Assembly: GCF_903969135.1 (NCBI RefSeq)
Contig: NZ_LR824569.1
Location: 930,001 to 994,000 of the forward strand
Length of the DNA: 64,000 bases
Reading direction: 5' to 3'
From: Chryseobacterium sp. JV274
Lineage (GTDB): Bacteria; Bacteroidota; Bacteroidia; Flavobacteriales; Weeksellaceae
The position numbers and the translations under genes are program-made. The notes below the pieces were generated by a model, which was not told where the DNA came from, ran no database searches, and worked only from the letters and a program-made list of their open reading frames with translations. Positions 18,648-63,766 of this stretch are shown here, piece by piece; the stretch's first letter is position 1; each line of letters opens with the position of its first letter.

Positions 18648-19463
18648 CTAAACTATGAACAAGGAAGCAATAGTCTGTGCATCGCTGCCACTTAATATTT
18701 CATCGTAAGCTGCAGAACCTGCTGCCGCTCCAAATAAAGTTCCTGTATTATAGCCCGCCTGGTTTACATTGTCTTCTCCGGCATACACAGGATTGGTTGC
18801 GGACGGCATATTTCCCCCGTCAGCAAGCTCAATCCATCCTTTATTAGCTCTCATTCTTCTTACCTGTGAAGCATGTCTGGCTTCAACAGAGTGAATCTGT
18901 AATGCAGCCTGAAGCACAACTTTATTGGACATTACGTTTCCCGCCTGTCCTTTATAAGCTCTTACTCCGGTATCTTCAAAAGCCTGGGCGAGAATAAGAA
19001 ACTGATTATAATCTGTAAAAGGCGAAAAATTTCCGCTGGCTGTAAAGTCAAAGGTTGGTTTATTTCCCGGTGTCGTTCCAAGAGAAGTGAGTGTACTTTT
19101 CAGAAAGCTGACATGGGCTGATTCATGTTTTGAAATCTGCATAAAAACAGTTCTGTCTCCAGTGGGAATCAATCCTGGTGTGGATAATCCTATACTGTAA
19201 TATTCATTTTCAAGATATTCCAGAGCCAATGCCAGTTGTAAGGCATCCGTCAGGGTACTTTTTAAAGCATAGCCTGTTAAATTTGTTTTTGTAGTTTCCG
19301 CTTTGGCGGAGGCAGCCATCAGCGTTCCTAATCCAAGCGGTACTGCAGCTGTAGCTGCTTTTTTTCCGAATAAAGACATATTCGTAATCGTTTCCAGTCT
19401 TGAAGCTTCCTTTGTGAAAAATTGATCATAAGAAAGCTTATCCAGTAATTTAAGAATATTCAT
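18648..19463 (-). CDS. Ferritin-like (Ferritin_2) domain protein
   Basis: 271 residues. After a variable head with a hydrophobic Ala/Gly stretch (~35-55) comes a four-helix ferritin-like domain. Its Glu/His pairs are in order: LEYLENEYY, KHESAHVSFL, FEDTGVRAYKG and HSVEARHASQVRR. This spacing matches the Ferritin_2 family (dehydration-stress Rds1-like). Metal binding is likely; the activity is not established. It lies 24 bp after a related Tat-exported gene, so they probably work as a pair in the envelope. The head could be a weak export signal. Confidence 0.82.
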   Translation of the reverse strand: MNILKLLDKLSYDQFFTKEASRLETITNMSLFGKKAATAAVPLGLGTLMAASAKAETTKTNLTGYALKSTLTDALQLALALEYLENEYYSIGLSTPGLIPTGDRTVFMQISKHESAHVSFLKSTLTSLGTTPGNKPTFDFTASGNFSPFTDYNQFLILAQAFEDTGVRAYKGQAGNVMSNKVVLQAALQIHSVEARHASQVRRMRANKGWIELADGGNMPSATNPVYAGEDNVNQAGYNTGTLFGAAAGSAAYDEILSGSDAQTIASLFIV

Positions 19464-19487
19464 AATGTAATTTTTAAAGGTGAATGA

Positions 19488-20198
19488 TTAGTTAATGCCT
19501 CTTTCTTTCCAGGTAAAAGGTGTTTTGATAAACGCTCCGGCAGCCATTACGATATCTTTGGGCTCTTTTGCAAGATCAAGTCCGTTCGCATCTATCACAT
19601 CATCTCCCGAAAAATCAGCAGTTCCCGGATTAATTAAATTTCTGATGACGGAAGCATGCCTGGCCTCTACCGAAACTATTTTGCCGGCAATCACCAGATA
19701 AGCAGGATTGGAAATATATTTCCCTGCCCCGTTGTAGGCTGCTACTCCTGTATCTTCCAAAGCTTTTGCTGTGGCTAATACGGAATTACGATCATTAAAA
19801 TTCACATTCGGATACTGGAATTCCAGTTTGGGTAGCACATGGTCTGTAGCACCGCTGATGGCTGCTTTAAAGAAATCCCGGTGAATCACTTCATGATGAT
19901 AAAGGTCTGTGAAAACTTCTTTCTCAATACTTGAAATTCCCGTATAAAAATTATTCACCACTTTCGTATAAAAATCTGCTTCCAGCTGCTCGAGTGCATA
20001 GGCATAGTTTAATATGCCCACATCTCCTGTCCCCAGATCATATTTAGGTTCATCTATGATCTGAAAATCATCATTGTCATCACATCCTATGAAGGTAAGA
20101 CCTGCGATGGCTAATCCTACTCCACTTAATTTTAAAAAGTTTCTTCTGCTTGTATCAAGGGTAACTCCCTGATTAGAAACCTGAATTGTTTTTTTCAT
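19488..20198 (-). CDS. Tat-exported ferritin-like lipoprotein
   Basis: 236 residues. The N-terminus has the twin-arginine motif SRRNFLKLSG (Arg18/Arg19), then a hydrophobic stretch ending in a lipobox at Cys39 (TFIGC), so a folded, lipid-anchored protein is predicted. The ferritin-like helices carry LEQLEADFY, HHEVIHRDFF, LEDTGVAAYNGAG and VSVEARHASVIR. Tat export fits a metal-loaded protein. It is the first of two tandem Ferritin_2 genes, 78 bp behind the fasciclin gene, with a terminator hairpin between. Confidence 0.87.
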   Translation of the reverse strand: MKKTIQVSNQGVTLDTSRRNFLKLSGVGLAIAGLTFIGCDDNDDFQIIDEPKYDLGTGDVGILNYAYALEQLEADFYTKVVNNFYTGISSIEKEVFTDLYHHEVIHRDFFKAAISGATDHVLPKLEFQYPNVNFNDRNSVLATAKALEDTGVAAYNGAGKYISNPAYLVIAGKIVSVEARHASVIRNLINPGTADFSGDDVIDANGLDLAKEPKDIVMAAGAFIKTPFTWKERGIN

Positions 20199-20227
20199 GC
20201 TATTATTTTTTTAGTGTTCGGATATAT

Positions 20228-20262
20228 AAAAAAGAAAAACAGCATATTCCGGTATGCTGTTT
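20228..20262 (-). terminator. Terminator or attenuator after the fasciclin gene
   Basis: A 10-bp stem, AAACAGCATA (20237-20246) with 20253-20262, is followed on the minus strand by a T-rich run. No separate promoter box was found for the ferritin genes, so partial read-through is possible. Confidence 0.7.
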
Positions 20263-20276
20263 TGTATCTTACATTA

Positions 20277-20846
20277 TTAAGGCATTAGAACCGTATCAAT
20301 TACATGGATCACCCCGTTAGACTGGTTCACATCTGCGATAGTCACTTTGGCACTGTTTCCTTTTGCATCCTTTATGTAAAGGTCTTTTCCTTTAGTCCAG
20401 AATGTAAGATCTTCTCCCTGTACAGTTTTCATCATACTTTTTCCATTTCCTGCTTTCACAGCAGCCCAGATTTCTTTTGCGCTGTATTTTCCAGAAAGAA
20501 CATGATAGGTTAAGATACTTGCAAGCATTGCTTTATTTTCAGGCTTTACAAGACTTTCTACCGTTCCTTTCGGAAGTTTTGCAAACGCAGCATCTGTGGG
20601 AGCCAGTACGGTAAAAGGCCCTGCGCTCTGTAATGTTTCTACCAAACCGGCAGCTTTCACTGCAGCAACAAGGGTTTTGTGATCTTTGGAATTGACTGCG
20701 TTTTCAATAATATTTTTGGAGGGATACATAGGGGCTCCTCCTACCATTACTGTTTTTTCTTTCATCGTTTGTGCTGTTACCTTCCCGCCAAAAGCAAATG
20801 ATAAAACAACCATTGCTAAAACTGTGATTTTTGACTGTGTGTTCAT
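20277..20846 (-). CDS. Secreted fasciclin (FAS1) domain protein
   Basis: 189 residues: a signal peptide (1-~25), then one FAS1 domain (~45-187) with the H1 box (GPFTVLAPTDAAFAKLP), the LTYHVLSGKY segment and the H2-like end (QSNGVIHVIDTVLMP). These small secreted proteins occur in many bacteria and are often encoded beside ECF sigma/anti-sigma pairs, as here, where sigma is divergent. A role in adhesion or envelope stress is inferred. Confidence 0.92.
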   Translation of the reverse strand: MNTQSKITVLAMVVLSFAFGGKVTAQTMKEKTVMVGGAPMYPSKNIIENAVNSKDHKTLVAAVKAAGLVETLQSAGPFTVLAPTDAAFAKLPKGTVESLVKPENKAMLASILTYHVLSGKYSAKEIWAAVKAGNGKSMMKTVQGEDLTFWTKGKDLYIKDAKGNSAKVTIADVNQSNGVIHVIDTVLMP

Positions 20847-21075
20847 TGCGTTGATTTTTAATTAATTATATTTAATTGTGCTTTTAATGTCATTTACGAG
20901 GTCGGTTTCATTTCAGATTGAAAAAAAATGAAATTTATTACAACACATTGATTTACAATAATTTATTTTTTATTAAAAAAAAAGAAACAATCTTGAAAAT
21001 GTAATCTCTCACATTAAATATTTTTCAATAATTTTCAAAAAATCATGTACGAAATAAAAGACGAATTGGATTTTA

Positions 21076-21105
21076 TTGACTATATGTTTTATTTTATTAC
21101 ATTTG
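21076..21105 (+). promoter_or_regulatory. Consensus promoter of the ECF sigma gene
   Basis: TTG (21076-21078), 19 bp, then TACATTTG (21098-21105) is a perfect fit to the flavobacterial -33/-7 consensus. Transcription should begin near 21111. Confidence 0.8.
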
Positions 21106-21123
21106 AATAGAAAAATAAAAGCT

Positions 21124-21672
21124 ATTAAAACAACCTATTCGGAAGAAGAACTTATCGTTTTATTAAAAGAAAAAAACGAAACTGGTTTTCATTATCTGTA
21201 TGACCACTATTCTGGTGCGCTGTACGGAATCATTCTCCGGATCGTTCAATCTAAAGAATATACTGAGGAAGTAATTCAGGATGTTTTTGTTAAAATATGG
21301 AACTCTATCCATCAGTATGACGCCTCCAAAGGGAGGTTTTATACCTGGATGATCAATATTGCAAGAAATACGGCTATTGATTATTTAAAGTCTAAAGGAT
21401 TCCAGAATGAGCTTAAAAACCAACCACTTCCGGATTTCGTATATAATACTACAGAGCTTTCAACGGTCAACAATTCATCTGATTATATCGGGTTTAACAA
21501 TGTGCTGGAAGGGCTGGAAACAGACAAGCAGGAACTCATAAATCTTGCTTATTATCAGGGATACACTCAACATGAAATATCCGAAAAGCTGAAGATACCG
21601 CTGGGAACAGTGAAAACGAAAATGCGTAATGCACTGATGAAATTAAAAGATTTGCTAAAAGATTATCAATAA
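21124..21672 (+). CDS. ECF-type RNA polymerase sigma factor
   Basis: Sigma region 2 (GFHYLYDHYSGALYGIILRI, then EEVIQDVFVKIWNSI, YTWMINIARNTAIDYL) and region 4 (GLETDKQELINLAYYQGYTQ, then EKLKIPLGTVKTKMRNAL) are clear. The start is uncertain. The frame is open from a TTG at 21076, but that TTG is the -33 element of the promoter, and a TTG at 21103 is inside the -7 box. The next candidate within the transcript is ATT at 21124 (IKTTYSEEEL), giving 182 residues and a normal family N-terminus. One base separates it from the anti-sigma gene. It probably controls its own operon and perhaps the divergent fasciclin/ferritin genes. Confidence 0.9.
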   Translation: MKTTYSEEELIVLLKEKNETGFHYLYDHYSGALYGIILRIVQSKEYTEEVIQDVFVKIWNSIHQYDASKGRFYTWMINIARNTAIDYLKSKGFQNELKNQPLPDFVYNTTELSTVNNSSDYIGFNNVLEGLETDKQELINLAYYQGYTQHEISEKLKIPLGTVKTKMRNALMKLKDLLKDYQ

Positions 21673-21673
21673 A

Positions 21674-22495
21674 TTGAACACAAAAGAATACATATCATCC
21701 GGAATTATAGAATCTTATATTCTTGGCCATACTTCTCCTGAGGAAGCAGGGATTTTGGAGTGTGTGATGAAAAATAATGCTGAAGTAAAGGCTGCTTTTG
21801 AAGAAGCCCAAAAAACTTTGGAACATCTTGCTACCGCTCAGGCTGTAACACCTCCAAGTGATTTGAAATCTAAAATCTGGAATAAAATTCAGCAGGAACA
21901 AACTGTTGAAGAAGTAACACCTGTTCTTTCAACAGATATTCCTGAGACAAAAGATCATAAAGAAATTCCGGAAAGAGTAAATATTCAGGGAAATACCCGC
22001 TGGAAAACCTATGCAATAGCAGCTTCTGCATTGTTCCTGATAAGTGTTGCCGGCAATTTATTCTGGATGAACAGCCAATCCTCCCATAAAAAGGAAATCG
22101 CTTTGCTGTCTGCAGAAAAACAAGCTCAGGATCTGGCAATGAAAAAAATGAACCGTAAGATTGATATGTTCTCCAATCCTGATATGCAGATGGTCATGCT
22201 GAAAGGGGTAGAAAAACATACGGATTCCAAAGCAATGGTTTTCTGGGATAAAAAAACAAAAGAAGTCTATCTGAATGCGGAAAAACTGCCTAAAGCTCCT
22301 ACTGGAATGCAATATCAGCTTTGGGCCATCGAAGACGGACAACCTGTGAGTGCAGGAATGTACACCGAAGATAAAGACAGCAACATTGCACTGGCCAATA
22401 TTTCCAATGCTCAGGCTTTTGCCATTACGCTCGAAAAAGAAGGCGGAAGTAAAGTGCCTACCATGGAGAATATGTTTGTCATGGGTGAAATTTAA
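21674..22495 (+). CDS. Anti-sigma factor (RskA-like)
   Basis: 273 residues with a TTG start one base after the sigma stop. Residues 1-75 form a cytoplasmic zinc-less anti-sigma domain (YISSGIIESYILGHTSPEEA). A Glu/Pro-rich linker precedes the single transmembrane helix (~112-132). The periplasmic part ends in the RskA fold (LPKAPTGMQYQLWAIEDGQP, then AFAITLEKEGGSKVPT). It holds the sigma factor at the membrane until a signal triggers release. It is convergent with the outer-membrane gene, 12 bp away. Confidence 0.92.
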   Translation: MNTKEYISSGIIESYILGHTSPEEAGILECVMKNNAEVKAAFEEAQKTLEHLATAQAVTPPSDLKSKIWNKIQQEQTVEEVTPVLSTDIPETKDHKEIPERVNIQGNTRWKTYAIAASALFLISVAGNLFWMNSQSSHKKEIALLSAEKQAQDLAMKKMNRKIDMFSNPDMQMVMLKGVEKHTDSKAMVFWDKKTKEVYLNAEKLPKAPTGMQYQLWAIEDGQPVSAGMYTEDKDSNIALANISNAQAFAITLEKEGGSKVPTMENMFVMGEI

Positions 22496-25844: not shown

Positions 25845-26828
25845 TTATTGTGTAATTATCCCATATTCTGGTTTAGGAAACTCACCAGGAGTTTTGTACC
25901 TGGTGGAATTGCCTTTATGATACCATGCTCCTAATCCTGAGATCATCAATGCCATATTATGTACAAACCGTACAACATTCTTTTGTTCAAGACCAAAATC
26001 AGGCAAATTATTCTGAAGTGCAACAAATTCCTGAACATATGAATCGTGGATATGCATTGCTTCAGTAATAGCTTCTTCCAATGAAACATGATACTGATTC
26101 TTTATCACCAATATAATGTTCAGAATTTCTGTATCAATTCCTAGTTCCTTCTCTATTGAAGCAAAATCATTCTGAATCGCCATTATTCTGCACATCAGCA
26201 TTTTTAACCGTTTTATAATCGGATGTTCAGATATATACCCCGGAACAATATAATTAATGGAAGGTTCTACCGGATCTCCATAGGGGTACATAAAAACCGA
26301 ATACTCACGGATAAGCAGAAGATTACTAAGAGTTGGAAATTCTCTTTTCAATTTATAGGATGTTTCTTCCATAATTCCATAGGTAGTATAATTATAAAAG
26401 TTTTTAGTCCAACGTATCAACCAGTCATTATTAACGTAAGGAATAAATTCCTGCCTGCTTAGAGCCACTTGTTTTATAAGTCCGATATCATCCGCTTTAG
26501 GCTGTTCTCCCAGCATGACATCCATTATATGGTCTCTGATATCTGCAAATTGATCAACCGGACACAACTCATAATAATCATCAAACAGAGTCAGCCATAC
26601 CATAAATCTTGCTATAGGTCTGATCTGCTCTTTGGTGCTAGCCGCCGGAAACATATAAGATGCGGCTTCTACGAGGCCGTGTTTCTTATATTTAGTTCTT
26701 GTGGCTTCTGACATAAACTGATAATCCGTATCAATCCAATTATTCTGTTCTTCATAGAATGATTGTGAAAACGGGCCTATTTCATAGGTCCAGGGATATT
26801 GTAAAACAGGAACATCTTGCTGTTTCAT
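25845..26828 (-). CDS. Class I terpene synthase 1
   Basis: 327 residues, the usual length for a bacterial class I terpene cyclase, soluble. Metal-binding motif one is LFDDYYEL (Asp83-Glu87). The NSE triad is NDFASIEKE (Asn220, Ser224, Glu228). The pyrophosphate-sensor Arg174 is 46 residues before the triad, and the C-terminal RY pair is Arg310-Tyr311. All catalytic features are intact. It cyclises a linear prenyl diphosphate; chain length and product cannot be read. It is the last gene of the minus-strand array, 34 bp after synthase 2. Its first ~63 residues are nearly identical to the broken copy at 27969-28330. Confidence 0.93.
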   Translation of the reverse strand: MKQQDVPVLQYPWTYEIGPFSQSFYEEQNNWIDTDYQFMSEATRTKYKKHGLVEAASYMFPAASTKEQIRPIARFMVWLTLFDDYYELCPVDQFADIRDHIMDVMLGEQPKADDIGLIKQVALSRQEFIPYVNNDWLIRWTKNFYNYTTYGIMEETSYKLKREFPTLSNLLLIREYSVFMYPYGDPVEPSINYIVPGYISEHPIIKRLKMLMCRIMAIQNDFASIEKELGIDTEILNIILVIKNQYHVSLEEAITEAMHIHDSYVQEFVALQNNLPDFGLEQKNVVRFVHNMALMISGLGAWYHKGNSTRYKTPGEFPKPEYGIITQ

Positions 26829-26862
26829 CTTTAAAATTTAAAATTGTTATATTGAATTAAGC

Positions 26863-27867
26863 TTATTTTACAGTCTTGGGGGTCAGGTTATCCTCAGGCC
26901 AGGCAAAACCAACTCCTCCGTGCTTATACCTATTGGTTTCCAGGTAAAAAGTATTAACTCCCTGCAGTCCAACACCTGCATAATAAACGAATTTGTCTAC
27001 GTGTTCCTGATATTCACCAAACTCCCGATACTCATTATGTAAGCCATTCAAACTGGCCAGCTCTTCATTATGAATACGTAAAGCTTCTGCACAAGCATCT
27101 TCCAAAGAAAGATTATACTCCTGCTGCAAAACAAAAACCAGATTAAAAACCTCTGTTCCTTTCGCCATTTCTTTTGGCAGGGAGTGAAGATCATTTTGCC
27201 AGGCAACAACCAGGGTCATATGGGAAATCATCTTTTGCACTACGATATGCTCAAAGATATGTTCCGGCAGGACAAGACCAGATTCAATCTCACCAAAGAT
27301 CAGATAAGGACGCATTAGAACAGAATATTCTCTAATGGTTTTGTAAAGATTCAGTGATGGCGGGCGGTGGGCTATTTTGTATGGATATTCCAATTCGATT
27401 CCATATCTGAAAGACTGATAAAAATAGTATACAAAACGCTCAAACCATAGGTCTGGCATGAAAGCACGAAATTCATCCCGGATCATTGCCATGTGATGAT
27501 AGAGCGCATTTTCCTCCGGCATGGCTTGAGCACCCCTGAGAATATCTGTACAGCGGATCCGCAGCTCCTGGATCTCTTCAAGGGAAGAATGTTCCACCTG
27601 ATCATCGAGAGCAACATATTGGAGCATAAACCTATTGCATGGAATAGCCTGCTCATAGGTTAAGTGCGGCCACATACGTGCTGTACACATATGAAGCTCC
27701 ATCTTTTTATAAATTGTCCGTTGTTTTTCTGTCAAAAAAGTATAGTCATTATCAATCCAGCCATCCATATCTTTCCCCATTTGTTCAGCATGTGGATTTA
27801 TAAGGTCAGGCCATGGATAGCATCCCCGTGGCAAGTAATCTGTACTATTAAATTGTTCTGGTGTCAT
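26863..27867 (-). CDS. Class I terpene synthase 2
   Basis: 334 residues. Motif one is ALDDQVEHS (Asp88, Asp89, Glu92). The NSE triad is NDLHSLPKE (Asn225, Ser229, Glu233). The sensor Arg179 is at the canonical 46-residue distance, and the RY pair is Arg313-Tyr314. It is intact and clearly divergent from synthase 1, so probably makes a different product. Its start is ~100 bp after the pseudogene stop and its end 34 bp before synthase 1. Confidence 0.93.
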   Translation of the reverse strand: MTPEQFNSTDYLPRGCYPWPDLINPHAEQMGKDMDGWIDNDYTFLTEKQRTIYKKMELHMCTARMWPHLTYEQAIPCNRFMLQYVALDDQVEHSSLEEIQELRIRCTDILRGAQAMPEENALYHHMAMIRDEFRAFMPDLWFERFVYYFYQSFRYGIELEYPYKIAHRPPSLNLYKTIREYSVLMRPYLIFGEIESGLVLPEHIFEHIVVQKMISHMTLVVAWQNDLHSLPKEMAKGTEVFNLVFVLQQEYNLSLEDACAEALRIHNEELASLNGLHNEYREFGEYQEHVDKFVYYAGVGLQGVNTFYLETNRYKHGGVGFAWPEDNLTPKTVK

Positions 27868-27968
27868 CTTTATTTATATTTTAAAATTATTGCAAAGCAT
27901 ATTAGTGTACCCGCCACTCTTTTCTAAACTTTCGGCAGGTTCTTAATACGACGGTAATTGTTCAGTTT

Positions 27969-28330
27969 TTATTGAAATTGGTTATGTCCTAATGTTTCTT
28001 TTAATTCGGAAGCACTTGGAAATTCTGTTTTGTTATAGCGGTCAAGCTTAGTGGATATATTTTTCCAGCCGCTCAATACCATACTCATAATAATCATCAA
28101 ATAGAGTCAGCTCTTGCTATAAGTAATCTGTCTTTGGTACTAGCCGCCGGAAACAGGTAAGACGCGGCCTCTACGAGGCCGTGTTTCTTATATTTAGTCC
28201 TTGTGGCTTCGGACATAAACTGATAATCCGTATCAATCCAACGATTCTGTTCTTCATAGAATGATTGGAAAAACGGGCCTATTTCATAGGTCCAGGGATA
28301 TTGTAAAACAGGAACATCTTGCTGTTTCAT
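27969..28330 (-). pseudogene. Chimeric remnant of a fifth terpene synthase
   Basis: The 5' part (28330 down to ~28090) matches the first ~85 codons of synthase 1, including the DDYYE region, with small deletions that shift the frame. At 28083-28089 (ACTCATA) it switches to a C-terminal sequence matching synthase 4. There, 51 bp (28039-28089) are identical to 29547-29597. The tail MVLSGWKNISTKLDRYNKTE then continues in frame to a stop at 27969-27971. ACTCATA also occurs at 26567-26573 in synthase 1 and 29591-29597 in synthase 4, which suggests a microhomology deletion. About 220 codons with the NSE triad are missing, so it is inactive. Confidence 0.85.
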
Positions 28331-28368
28331 ATCATTTAAAATTAGAAGATTAATTATTGAGTTGCACA

Positions 28369-29385
28369 TTAAAAATGCTTAATTTCCACCCTTTCCAGTG
28401 TTTCACCTTTTCCGTTGGGTGGTACAGCAAATCCTCCCGGTTCATACCTTTTTGTCCCACTTTGATAGTACCAGTTATTTAATCCACTAATCATTTGCTT
28501 TATGTAATAAATAAATTCTTCTGTTTCTTTTTGATATGGGCTGAAATCCGGTAAATGGTTGGATAGCGTTACAAATTCATCTACAAGCTCGTCATGGATT
28601 CTCATTCCTTCCCTACAGGCTTCATCAAAAGACATTTTATTATGATACATCAGTAATTTGATAATATTGAACATTTCTGATTCTATCGCAAGTTCTTTTC
28701 CGATAGTTGCAAAATCGTTCTGTAAAGCAACAATAATTGACTGCAGCATAATTATGCGCTGGATAACAGTATGATTATAAATAAAATCAGGCAAAGCAAA
28801 TCCCGTTGTTGGGCAAATCAAATCAACAAATGGAATCATACCTATTGAATTGGCACGAATTAAATGAAATAAAGGAATGGGAGGAATTTCCTTACTGATT
28901 TTATAAGGAGATTCTTCCATAATTCCATCAGTAACAAAATTATACTTATATTTTTTAGCCATTCGTTCAAGCCAGAAATCTGGCATTCCAAGTGCTATCC
29001 ACTCTTTTCTATTGGCTTGCATCTGGCGGAATATTCCTATTTCGCCAGGTTTGGGGTCATCCCCCATCATAACTTCAAAAATCCGGTCTCTAAAACCTGC
29101 AATTTCTTTTATGGGTAAAAGTTCAGCATAATCATCAGTTACTGTCATATATATTGCAAAACGTGTAGCATGAAGAATTCTTTCTTTTTCAGCAGCACCG
29201 GGTACCATAAAAGGACCTACATCTATCAAACGCATTTTCCTATATCTTGCCATGGATTCTTTTGAAAGAAACTGATAATCCTGGTCATACCAGATAGTTT
29301 CTTCTTGGTCTAAAGTTCCTGCAAAAGGACTTCGAAGAGTTTCCCAAGGATACACCGGCTTTGGTACATTAAATTGTTTGTTCAT
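28369..29385 (-). CDS. Class I terpene synthase 3
   Basis: I start it at the ATG 29383-29385 (338 residues) because this gives the family N-terminus MNKQFNVPKPVYPWETL; the frame is open 23 codons further. Motif one is VTDDYAELL (Asp84, Asp85, Glu88). The NSE triad is NDFATIGKE with Thr227 in the Ser position (a common variant). The sensor Arg177 is 46 residues before Asn223, and an RY pair is in KRYEPGGF. Intact. It lies 100 bp after synthase 4 in the same orientation. Confidence 0.92.
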   Translation of the reverse strand: MNKQFNVPKPVYPWETLRSPFAGTLDQEETIWYDQDYQFLSKESMARYRKMRLIDVGPFMVPGAAEKERILHATRFAIYMTVTDDYAELLPIKEIAGFRDRIFEVMMGDDPKPGEIGIFRQMQANRKEWIALGMPDFWLERMAKKYKYNFVTDGIMEESPYKISKEIPPIPLFHLIRANSIGMIPFVDLICPTTGFALPDFIYNHTVIQRIIMLQSIIVALQNDFATIGKELAIESEMFNIIKLLMYHNKMSFDEACREGMRIHDELVDEFVTLSNHLPDFSPYQKETEEFIYYIKQMISGLNNWYYQSGTKRYEPGGFAVPPNGKGETLERVEIKHF

Positions 29386-29485
29386 AATATGTTGTTTTAA
29401 TTTTAATAGAATAAAAATTACATTTTCAATAATCTCGTTTTTTTCAAATTGCAATATGTAATTGGAAATTTTGTCGATTTTGGTA

Positions 29486-30499
29486 TTAAAATTGGCTCAG
29501 CCTTTCTTTCAATTCATTTGTCTGAGGAAACTCCATAGCATTATAACGGTCAAGCTTAGTGGATATATTTTTCCAGCCGCTCAATACCATACTCATATAG
29601 TGTACCCAATTGACCACAGCCTCGTGCCATATACCAAAGTCTGGAAGTGAAGCCTGCAGGGCTATAAACTCCTTAAGATCTTCATTATGGAGGCGCAGGT
29701 CTTCCAGGCAGGCTTCCTCTAACGAGATGCTGTGTTCATTCTGGATTACCTTCACAATATTATAATAGATACTGTCTGTCGCTTCATCTTTTACTACAGA
29801 TTGAACTTCATTGAAAAAAGTTACCAGATGACAGGCAAGTGCCTGAAGACGGCGGATCACCGGATGATCATGAATTTCCGGCGGCAGGGTGATTCCTGTT
29901 TCAACTTCAGTAAGCTGCAGGAAAGGATACAGGCAGATGGAATCTTCCCTTAAGACAATGCATTCTGCCGTTGTAGGAAACATCTTATTCTTTTTGTATT
30001 CCTGTTCCTTCTTAAGCCCGCTAAAATACCTACTGATCATCTGTGTGAAACGATACATGGATTCTTTTGGAATAAACTGAAGTAATTCCTGTCTTAACGA
30101 AGCAAGCATAGAAGCTAAAGGTATTGTAGACTGAGAAACAGACATTTCACCATTCAATATAGCAATGGATTGAGCATGTACATCATCAATGTCATCAGGC
30201 TTACTTTCTTCATACAGATCATCATTGTAAAGTGTCCAGAGCATCAGTCTGCAGATAGGCCGGAAACGTTCAGCAGAAGCGGTAGGAAACCATTGGGCAG
30301 CGATGTGGGCCGTTTTGGTTTTTTTGTACTTCTTACGCAGATCAGGATTATTTTGATACAGCCACATGTATTCACCATCAATCCATTGATTTTCGGTGAT
30401 TTCCTGCAATTGATCCGCATGGGGATTTTTTAAGGTTGGGAACGGATACCTGAACTTTGTACGAAGAAGTTCAAGAGGGTTAAAATTTTCATTACTCAT
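29486..30499 (-). CDS. Class I terpene synthase 4 with altered NSE motif
   Basis: 337 residues. Motif one is YNDDLYEES (Asp93, Asp94, Glu97). The NSE region reads NEVQSVVKDE: Asn230 and Ser234 are kept, but the second position is Glu231 instead of Asp, and the third metal ligand position holds Asp238 instead of Glu, with Glu239 beside it. The sensor Arg184 is at 46 residues and the RY pair is in LDRYN. It may be active with altered metal geometry or product outcome. It is the first gene of the array, so the promoter should lie upstream of 30499. Confidence 0.9.
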   Translation of the reverse strand: MSNENFNPLELLRTKFRYPFPTLKNPHADQLQEITENQWIDGEYMWLYQNNPDLRKKYKKTKTAHIAAQWFPTASAERFRPICRLMLWTLYNDDLYEESKPDDIDDVHAQSIAILNGEMSVSQSTIPLASMLASLRQELLQFIPKESMYRFTQMISRYFSGLKKEQEYKKNKMFPTTAECIVLREDSICLYPFLQLTEVETGITLPPEIHDHPVIRRLQALACHLVTFFNEVQSVVKDEATDSIYYNIVKVIQNEHSISLEEACLEDLRLHNEDLKEFIALQASLPDFGIWHEAVVNWVHYMSMVLSGWKNISTKLDRYNAMEFPQTNELKERLSQF

Positions 30500-62407: not shown

Positions 62408-63766
62408 TTACACGGTCATTCCGATGTCTATTCCTTTAATTTTTCTATATAAATCGGTAGCATAGTTATCAGTCATTCCTGAAACGAAATCAATTACTCC
62501 GAGAACTTTCTGATAATCGGTACCATCATTGTAAATGAATTGCTTTGGAATTAATTTCAAAGCTTTTTCATCATAAGATTTTCTATGGTCTTCCGGTTTC
62601 AGAATGGAAGGAATAAAATGATCCAGCAATTCATACATTACATTATATCCTGCATTTTCAATTTCTACAACCGCTTTATGATTATAGATTTTTTCTACGG
62701 AGAAACTTGCAATATCCTGCAGTGCTTTATTTTCTTTTTTATAGATATCAAGTAAGCCGTTGCCAAGATTGCCTTCAAGAATCGTTTCAAAGTTATGTTT
62801 GTACATCTCAATCGACTTATTGATCAGAGCATTGATTACTTTTGCTCTTAAGTAAGAAATCTGTTCGTTTTCGTTGGAGATAGAACTTAGCTTTGTTTCA
62901 ATTCTCTGAACATCATTTGTTTCAGATTTTACCAGTTCAAAAAATAAATTTTTACAGTCTGCTGTTGAAACAATTCCCAATCTGTGGGCATCTTCCATAT
63001 CAATGATGTTGTAGCAGATATCATCAGCAGCTTCTACCAGCCATACAAAAGGATGTCTTTTGAAAATATAAGGTTCTTCACTTTCAGAAATAAGCTGGGT
63101 TCCTTTGGCAATTTCAAGGAATATGTCTTTTTCATTCTGGAAAAACCCGAATTTCTTCCTGTGAATGATTCCTTTTTTCTTGGCTACAGCCTCACAAGGA
63201 TATTTTGCAATACTTGCCAGTGTGGAGAAAGTAAGCTGAACACCTCCCGCATCTTTCCCTTGCTGCTGCTGTGCCAGTACTCTGATCGCATTGGCATTTC
63301 CTTCAAAGTTAACCAGATCCGCCCACTCTTTTTCATTGAATTTTGACTTCAGGTCTTTTTCATTCCTTTCAAAATAGCTTGCAATGGCATCTTCTCCTGA
63401 ATGTCCGAAAGCAGGGTTTCCGACATCATGACATAAACATGCAGCTGCAATTACGTTTCCCAGATTATAGAGATAAAAATTCTTTGAATCTTCAGTCAGT
63501 TCATTTTTAAAATCTTCCGCAATAAATTCACCGATAATACTTCCTAAACTTCTTCCTACAGATGATACTTCCAGAGAATGGGTAAGTCTGTTGTGTACAA
63601 AAACACTTCCGGGAAGAGGAAAAACCTGCGTTTTATTCTGTAGTCTTCTGAAAGCAGAAGAGAAAATAATTCTGTCGAAATCCCTTTGAAAATCAGTTCG
63701 TGAAGCTTTGGTCTGTGGATTGTTTCCTGTACGTTGATTGGTGAAAATCTGGTTTAAATTCATCAT
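62408..63766 (-). CDS. dgt: Deoxyguanosinetriphosphate triphosphohydrolase (dGTPase)
   Basis: 452 residues. The HD-domain metal ligands are visible: His63 (RLTHSLEVSSVGRSLG), then His113-Asp114 (CLCHDVGNPAFGHSGE, with His122). The head RTDFQRDFDRIIFSSAFRRL and PFVWLVEAADDICYNIIDME (second metal Asp) are typical. It hydrolyses dGTP and related dNTPs to nucleoside plus triphosphate. Two Met codons (63766, 63763) begin it. Monocistronic. Confidence 0.94.
   Translation of the reverse strand: MMNLNQIFTNQRTGNNPQTKASRTDFQRDFDRIIFSSAFRRLQNKTQVFPLPGSVFVHNRLTHSLEVSSVGRSLGSIIGEFIAEDFKNELTEDSKNFYLYNLGNVIAAACLCHDVGNPAFGHSGEDAIASYFERNEKDLKSKFNEKEWADLVNFEGNANAIRVLAQQQQGKDAGGVQLTFSTLASIAKYPCEAVAKKKGIIHRKKFGFFQNEKDIFLEIAKGTQLISESEEPYIFKRHPFVWLVEAADDICYNIIDMEDAHRLGIVSTADCKNLFFELVKSETNDVQRIETKLSSISNENEQISYLRAKVINALINKSIEMYKHNFETILEGNLGNGLLDIYKKENKALQDIASFSVEKIYNHKAVVEIENAGYNVMYELLDHFIPSILKPEDHRKSYDEKALKLIPKQFIYNDGTDYQKVLGVIDFVSGMTDNYATDLYRKIKGIDIGMTV

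Follow-up and report, generated by a model that had tools for sequence, protein, structure and literature searches.

A terpene synthase array in Chryseobacterium sp. JV274 as a likely merger of two arrays

Within the genus Chryseobacterium, the wanjudiene and polytrichastrene synthases CwWS and CpPS are class I enzymes that cyclise GGPP (PMC7383580; PMC8518897). Also from this genus, CsDTPS of CF314 (EJL71407) and CvTPS of C. vrystaatense (KFF23441) are treated in PMC7192455. The chryseojoostene synthase CjCS of Chryseobacterium joostei (WP_076356785) shares 27% identity with CwWS and is active in vitro on its own (PMC12535395). Genomes with many synthases are also reported from another genus of the Bacteroidota, Chitinophaga, in which C. 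japonensis holds at least eleven type I synthases and four of the enzymes are discussed without linked oxidation genes; the accessible text of that report describes neither a head-anchored array nor an MEP-linked cluster (PMC12723471). A possible model for the gain of genes is homology-facilitated illegitimate recombination, in which one end is joined by homology and the other by illegitimate joining (PMC3240628).

The DNA analysed here, called the window, is a 64,000-nucleotide stretch of Chryseobacterium sp. JV274 that contains four synthase genes and one broken copy (Table 1). An earlier note, made from the letters alone, had recognised four same-strand genes for class I terpene synthases with a DDxxE motif, an NSE-type triad, a sensor Arg 46 residues ahead of the triad Asn and an RY pair, and this description holds. 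All four proteins match PF19086 (79.7-108.5 bits against a cut-off of 23.7) and are exactly the four matches at E <= 0.001 in the whole genome, each within 30499-25845. In the alignment, the active-site motifs are in register; DDxxE, the sensor Arg and the RY pair are found in every protein, and the triad reads N/S/E in TS1 and TS2, N/T/E in TS3 and N/S/D in TS4. The distance of 46 residues characterises the family as a whole and is not peculiar to the array; it is kept in 195 of 195 aligned full-length relatives, where the sensor position is Arg in 191, Ser in three and His in one. A profile built from the window synthases matches solved synthases (best E 1.1e-36). Pairwise, the four proteins are 27-41% identical, and dN/dS lies at 0.035-0.114 over 22 usable pairs. 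They are separate enzymes of class I that evolve under purifying selection, and several terpenes may therefore well arise from this one locus, as the note had suggested.

Table 1. Features of the synthase array, in window coordinates.
Feature	Coordinates	Strand	Length	PF19086 (bits)	Description
TS4	30499-29486	(-)	337 aa	108.5	Head gene; predicted CjCS-type diterpene synthase; last ~40 nt donor-type
TS3	29454-28369	(-)	361 aa from TTG	79.7	Class I terpene synthase from the extra segment
TS2	27867-26863	(-)	334 aa	105.2	Class I terpene synthase
TS1	26828-25845	(-)	327 aa	96.3	Class I terpene synthase; ends the array
Left junction zone	29541..29597	(-)	51 nt identical in TS4 and remnant		Switch from resident to donor sequence
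Fusion remnant	27970..28345	(-)			TS1-type head (28330-28131) and resident TS4 tail (28089 downwards)
Illegitimate junction	28083..28089	(-)	7 nt		Word TATGAGT common to TS1 (codon 86) and TS4 (codon 301)

TS4 carries all seven published active-site residues of CjCS (I66, M86, L90, I188, C189, L190 and D238) at identical numbering (PMC12535395), including the odd Asp of the triad, and is therefore probably CjCS itself, a GGPP-cyclising enzyme, or an orthologue of it. Besides these residues, the assignment draws on a CwWS-like protein to which TS4 is 29.7% identical, set against the 27% published for CjCS and CwWS; across TS1-TS4, identity to this protein is 29-32%. Residues I66, M86, N230 and D238 occur in register in 70 of the 224 synthase-like ORFs, every one in the TS4 clade. 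CpPS and CwWS were rejected as array members, as the residues given in the available text on them fit 0 of 224 array-locus ORFs; those of CwWS fit proteins from other loci (L023, L025, L027, L032, L034; L numbers denote compared loci). The idea that the head gene is inactive through its triad Asp was likewise rejected, given that CjCS has the same Asp and is active, and that its D238E variant is less productive (PMC12535395). The substrate cannot be read from the position equivalent to I66 (I in TS4, V in TS3, C in TS2, A in TS1); it is often aromatic, above all in diterpene synthases, yet CpPS and CjCS have Ile (PMC8518897), and so the residue predicts nothing here. Because the diterpenes of CjCS were not detected in the headspace of C. 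joostei, the array genes may be silent in culture.

TS3 likely starts at an alternative ATG at 29385; the protein would then be 338 aa long, like its counterparts from L120, L122 and L130. Its orthologues (88-100% identity) lie in L115, L117, L120, L122 and L130, and it is absent from relatives with TS4-TS2-TS1 arrays. Among the four genes, dN/dS is lowest in range for TS2 (0.035-0.053), and its orthologue (at least 78% identity) is the commonest first follower of TS4-type genes, found behind 31 of 83 heads. The AlphaFold2 model of TS2 (mean pLDDT 85.3) is closest among solved structures to T-muurolol synthase (9hqm, TM 0.84); its nearest solved folds are sesquiterpene synthases, and the favoured explanation of the array would allow a C20 or a C15 substrate. 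Orthologues of TS1 are found in L036-L039, L041 and L042.

The earlier note had traced the array to duplication followed by divergence. Local duplication and divergence of a single ancestral synthase within this lineage would fit the common fold and strand of all copies and the 41% identity between TS1 and TS3, but is highly improbable. Orthologues in other families (Chitinophaga, Taibaiella, Flavobacterium) reach 84% identity for TS4, 88% for TS3 and 84-87% for TS2, and because identities of 82-88% in other genera stand against 27-41% among the four, TS4, TS3 and TS2 diverged long before the array formed. The array appears to have been assembled from old synthase lineages circulating separately, the last visible step probably being the merging of two arrays, which would have brought in TS3 and left a broken gene.

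That broken gene had been noted before as a fifth copy. It is real but differs from what was described: a 7-nt match joins the head of a TS1 to the tail of a TS4. The head shows 94.5-95% identity to that of TS1 in the window, with small indels, and the tail (28089-28018) is 89% identical to the window TS4 tail and 94-97.5% identical to the TS4 tails of L036, L038, L039 and L040. Among eight aligned loci, five (L116, L157, L164, L036, L038) skip from window position 29541 to 28089, and L117 aligns without a break to 28085. The end of TS4 is itself mosaic. Its nt 976-1014 are 44-54% identical to L116, L036, L038, L039 and L040 against 87% to L117, a donor-type tail diagnosed from about 40-110 nt; before nt 900, identity to the same five loci is 84-99%, and over nt 376-900 identity to L117 is only 69-80%. 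Mosaics are not confined to the window, since identity drops to 75-81% over TS4 nt 451-900 in L157, a locus of resident type. Identity to C. panacisoli is 99.4-100% over the segment 30467-27968, 98.2% in the next block and 85.6-95.0% in the other 35 blocks.

Comparison with relatives, which the earlier note had recommended, reveals the order TS4-TS2-TS1 in L036, L037, L038, L039 and L041 and TS4-TS3-TS1 in L042 (the same locus as L117), and the window would be both of these merged. The reading as a whole, four class I synthases in a locus formed by merging of two arrays, is considered likely; that a single insertion produced it is proposed with less assurance, as the somewhat more probable course. 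In this course, a resident TS4-TS2-TS1 array would have taken up part of a foreign TS4-TS3-TS1 array, by homologous recombination within the TS4 tail at one end and, at the other, through the 7-nt match that joined the foreign TS1 to the resident TS4. An intact TS3 would have been gained, the tip of TS4 swapped and the fusion remnant left behind. One homologous and one microhomology junction were indeed found around donor sequence (tail 87% identical to L117), a pattern resembling homology-facilitated illegitimate recombination, although here the process would be an evolutionary event read from sequence alone (PMC3240628). As to competence for the uptake of DNA, the genome has matches to DprA and ComEC, each of which is also matched in 10 of 14 control genomes.

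Tandem joining of the arrays into a six-gene TS4-TS3-TS1-TS4-TS2-TS1 array, followed by a TS1'-TS4' deletion at TATGAGT, would leave exactly such a remnant, and other arrays (L080; L076/L079/L083/L170) likewise contain internal pieces of a TS4 tail. The remnant head is also nearest to the local TS1 (94.5%, against 84.0-90.5% for four other TS1 genes compared). Since it is closer to the window TS1 than to that of L117 (only 84.0%), an internal duplication could have supplied it, and the exact donor was not found among the loci compared. This course nevertheless needs two events in place of one, and no intact six-gene array occurs among the loci surveyed with the 83 heads; it is regarded as possible but rather doubtful, and the single insertion is preferred.

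CjCS is described, in the available text of its report, as lying outside any gene cluster (PMC12535395), whereas the TS4-type genes compared here usually head a multi-synthase array: for 80 of 83, no synthase on the same strand lies shortly upstream, and 77 are trailed by further synthases at a median head-to-follower gap of 55.5 nt. TS4-type genes have evidently been transferred across genera; in seven of eight distant genomes from the Bacteroidota, TS4 is more similar than RpoB. The constancy of the head, the short gap, the strong constraint on head and follower and the recurrence of TS4-TS3 and TS4-TS2 pairs in Chitinophaga and Flavobacterium could suggest that the head acts with its followers as partner, chaperone or intermediate donor, beyond being the first gene. 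Such coupling is unlikely, given that CjCS works unaided in vitro (PMC12535395), that the followers are very diverse in kind and that for six of the 83 heads no follower lies within 2.5 kb.

Upstream of the head, most rows begin to match the window within about 35 nt of the start codon, and a mobile or conserved shared promoter was dropped on this ground; beyond near relatives, eleven rows match from further up, the farthest from about 200 nt. A single insertion site was also rejected, as the first upstream genes of the 83 heads form 50 groups (including a "none available" group of four heads). The insertion site of the window itself is common to several near relatives.

The earlier note had seen no prenyl diphosphate synthase, P450 or transporter beside the array, and none of these families occurs among the six nearest neighbours scanned. 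Prenyl-synthase and MEP cassette genes of other genera have no match within the window, PF00067 (P450) has none in the whole genome, and the two prenyl synthases of the genome both lie away from the array. HMG-CoA reductase is present in the genome, with no dxs above the cut-off. A TS4-type gene adjoins prenyl-synthase and MEP-pathway genes in Taibaiella, Parapedobacter and Dyadobacter; precursor or tailoring genes, the mark of a classical terpenoid cluster, stand alongside in L139, L158 and L160 and are missing from the six neighbours scanned at the window array. The genome of C. defluvii has an IDI relic besides an IDI of its own. The array would be operon-like and co-transcribed, with four working class I synthases. 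TS4 would convert GGPP into chryseojoostene-type diterpenes; for TS3, TS2 and TS1 the most likely substrates are C20 or C15 diphosphates, which each enzyme would turn into a cyclic product of its own. Substrate would be supplied by the mevalonate pathway and the two distant prenyl synthases, and the products would leave without P450 oxidation.

For the Bacteroidota as a whole, it is tentatively proposed that they exchange an expandable mobile synthase array in which the chryseojoostene-synthase head serves as recombination anchor and captures behind it leave scars of decapitated heads. The ancestor would have been a self-contained cluster (prenyl synthase, DXS, IspH, IspG or DXR, IDI and synthases) whose precursor genes were lost when it entered mevalonate hosts such as Chryseobacterium.

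The orphan, "unclustered" CjCS type thereby gains a genomic setting as the gene that usually opens arrays made up of synthases only. In three other genera, it belongs to a cluster that could potentially supply its own prenyl diphosphate, and the substrate of the CjCS type, and perhaps its biological role, can therefore be tested. The scar in the window shows, nucleotide by nucleotide, a way in which a terpene synthase could be acquired while none is lost, and the many synthases of the family that are still uncharacterised can serve the discovery of products.

The host genome (5.23 Mb, one contig) contains four genes matching PF19086, which are those of the array, named TS4, TS3, TS2 and TS1 in transcription order. 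Their ORFs and PF19086 matches confirm the four same-strand class I synthase genes described in the earlier note, whose DDxxE, NSE-triad, sensor-Arg and RY motifs line up with one another in the alignment. The claimed spacing of exactly 46 residues between the Arg and the Asn is present but not distinctive, as 195 of 195 aligned full-length relatives share it, so that it confirms the family and is not special to these genes. Pairwise, the four are 27-41% identical. Against relatives, dN/dS is low for TS4 (0.043-0.114 in seven pairs, one further pair being saturated), TS2 (0.035-0.053, six pairs), TS1 (0.060-0.111, six pairs) and TS3 (0.039-0.092, three pairs), so that each of the four looks functional. 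For TS2, a model built from 17 aligned sequences (mean pLDDT 85.3, with an unreliable stretch in the last 19 residues) resembles class I synthases; the best structural matches are to T-muurolol synthase, with a TM-score by query length of 0.81-0.85, which is also the top PDB match by sequence. This enzyme makes a sesquiterpene, and the fold therefore does not reveal which substrate TS2 uses.

Features of the window and of synthase loci (L-numbers) from other genomes
Feature	Position	Strand	Content
TS4	30499-29486	minus	PF19086 match; first in transcription order
TS3	29454-28369	minus	PF19086 match; second
Remnant	27970-28345	minus	broken fifth copy
TS2	27867-26863	minus	PF19086 match; third
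TS1	26828-25845	minus	PF19086 match; fourth
Ferritin-like region	18648-22495		two ferritin-like proteins and a fasciclin protein, adjoining a sigma/anti-sigma pair (21076-22495)
dGTP triphosphohydrolase	62408-63766		NF002205 barely above its cut-off; sub-cut-off scores with anti-phage dGTPase models too
Taibaiella helva cluster	L139:5668-13812		prenyl synthase, DXS, IspH, TS4, IDI, synthase, TS2; another synthase 1.2 kb before
Parapedobacter tibetensis cluster	L160:3260-15437		prenyl synthase, DXS, IspH, synthase, DXR, TS4, four synthases
Dyadobacter jiangsuensis cluster	L158:9995-19615		TS4, IspG, DXS, IspH, prenyl synthase, IDI, synthase
C. defluvii IDI	L068:6307-6805		frameshifted over three frames, inside a terpene synthase array
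C. lathyri heads	L062:8149-11655		two TS4-type heads, divergent back to back; one broken by stop codons

Each window synthase belongs to a known enzyme class. The chryseojoostene synthase of C. joostei, CjCS, converts GGPP to chryseojoostenes A-E and is said to stand outside any gene cluster; the residues studied were I66, M86, L90, I188, C189, L190 and D238, the last being the unusual Asp in the NSE triad, and no diterpene is reported to have been observed in the headspace (PMC12535395). TS4 shares all seven of these published residues with identical numbering. Across 224 synthase-like ORFs of the fetched loci, I66, M86, N230 and D238 are in register in 70, start-site offsets being allowed, and every one of these 70 belongs to the TS4 clade. 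Judged by these residues, TS4 is a putative enzyme of the chryseojoostene synthase type, and so predicted to be of a kind already described.

In the genus, PF19086 genes occur in 76 of 173 genomes, two of which carry at least 17. TS4 matches (E <= 1e-60) are found in 53 of 320 family genomes, all within one of 33 genera; in one of the 53 (G087) identity is just 44%. Loci were fetched by TS4 or TS1 matches (80) with 57 more, and 83 TS4-type genes of at least 320 aa, here called heads, were counted, 73 from the genus (window included) and 10 from other genera; left out were 47 of the 57, which for the most part duplicate Chryseobacterium places already represented, and any head that was broken. 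No same-strand synthase lies upstream, within a run of gaps <=2.5 kb, of 80 of the 83 heads (exceptions L072, L160 and L163), five of the 80 having <1.1 kb of upstream DNA, which could not fully reveal one. At least one following synthase, fragments included, is present for 77 heads, that of L156 on the opposite strand; under random order the head would be expected first in about 31 of 77, in cases that are non-independent through shared ancestry. The gap to the follower has a median of 55.5 nt over 76 gaps and is <=110 nt in 66. Directly behind the head stands a TS2 orthologue (>= 78%) in 31 cases and a TS3 orthologue in six. Internal TS4-tail fragments occur in L080 and the related L076, L079, L083 and L170, and degraded heads in L109, L110/L171, L111 and L112. 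Long arrays end in a similar truncated synthase fragment (cluster 3) in L075, L076, L083, L089 (181 aa) and L079 (198 aa).

The broken fifth copy of the earlier note exists, but it is not a plain copy: at 28330-28131 it has a head with 95% identity to TS1, joined to a tail that matches TS4 from 28089 downwards. The order TS4-TS2-TS1, without TS3, is found in L036, L037, L038, L039, L041, L116 (C. rhizoplanae), L157 (C. sediminis) and L164, some of which are the same places, and TS4-TS3-TS1 in L117 (C. phosphatilyticum, = L042). Aligned to the window, five of eight loci (L116, L157, L164, L036 and L038) jump from 29541 to 28089, and L118 ends at 29541 and picks up again at 27891; L117 is continuous from 30772 to 28085. 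Window TS4 resembles that of the TS4-TS2-TS1 loci as far as about nt 900, L157 itself being lower (75-81%) over nt 451-900. At nt 976-1014 it is 87% identical to L117, versus 44-54% to L116, L036, L038, L039 and L040 and 49% to L118 and L157. For the remnant tail, identity to the TS4 tail is 94-97.5% in L036, L038, L039 and L040, 88% in L118, 81-83% in L116 and L157 and 67% in L117, against 74% for the TS4 of the window itself. At the right junction lies a 7-nt word, TATGAGT, that TS1 and TS4 have in common. The simplest reading of this scar is one insertion, homologous at its left end and illegitimate at its right. The main rival is a duplication followed by deletion, favoured by the remnant head being closest to the window's own TS1 (94.5% versus 84.0-90.5% for four other TS1 genes).

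C. panacisoli (L115) carries the same scar and aligns to the window without the jump. Over 30467-27968 the two are 99.4-100% identical in five 500-nt blocks, with 98.2% in the next block, versus 85.6-95.0% in the remaining 35; this stretch has therefore been exchanged recently between species. The 2.35-Mb C. panacisoli scaffold with the array is titled plasmid in its record, perhaps mistakenly, since rpoB of that genome lies on contig C1, which may be this very scaffold.

Beyond the genus, TS4 identity to the window exceeds that of RpoB in Chitinophaga ginsengisegetis (84 vs 69), Taibaiella (82 vs 70), Pedobacter steynii (82 vs 72), Flavobacterium cerinum (82 vs 77), Chitinophaga varians (77 vs 69), Parapedobacter (76 vs 73) and Dyadobacter (73 vs 66), and recent transfer is not indicated for Sinomicrobium (58 vs 78). 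Within the genus TS4 is the faster-evolving of the two (C. phosphatilyticum 89 vs 99, C. populi 85 vs 97), and its higher identity outside the genus is all the more telling for that. L122, L123 and L159 fall among Chryseobacterium rows in a quick tree (SH-aLRT 81, 94 and 86) with 38 of 80 inner branches below 80 and a long outgroup. Synthase pairs move together: TS4-TS3 (85/88%) and TS4-TS2 (79/84%) both occur in Chitinophaga ginsengisegetis, and F. cerinum has TS4-TS2 (82/86%). A protein search at E <= 1e-40 gave 160 relatives of TS4, of which 120 were listed, from Chryseobacterium, Chitinophaga, Taibaiella, Belliella, Pedobacter and others. The first upstream genes of the 83 heads form 50 groups. 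Natural competence is known in Riemerella, which abstracts place in Flavobacteriaceae, and Flavobacterium johnsoniae is described there as lacking competence under the condition used; the window's genome has DprA and ComEC, but so do most control genomes.

The clusters of T. helva, P. tibetensis and D. jiangsuensis can be described as putatively self-sufficient isoprenoid clusters. Each genome has two dxs genes above cut-off, one inside the cluster, and the prenyl synthases of the clusters score best with models of GGPP or short-chain synthases, yet below every curated cut-off listed. In F. cerinum (L159) a convergent prenyl synthase adjoins the array. In 138 loci searched for the genes of these clusters, many places being represented twice, the IDI relative of C. 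defluvii (L068 = L168) is the only one found among the Chryseobacterium loci; a dxs-like match in L126 (28%) was taken as a different transketolase-type protein. The host of the window most likely relies on the mevalonate route, since its genome encodes HMG-CoA reductase and has no dxs above cut-off. Hosts do not divide neatly by route: Dyadobacter, Parapedobacter and F. cerinum have both genes. Two prenyl synthases are encoded in the window's genome, both away from the array, and a P450 search of it gave no match.

Constant-head arrays, the scar and MEP-linked relatives were not found in the open-licence papers searched. The array most likely yields several terpenes, among them at least one predicted diterpene, most likely released without P450 oxidation. 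Such arrays would grow as foreign synthases are captured behind the head, a course that the structure of the scar fits.
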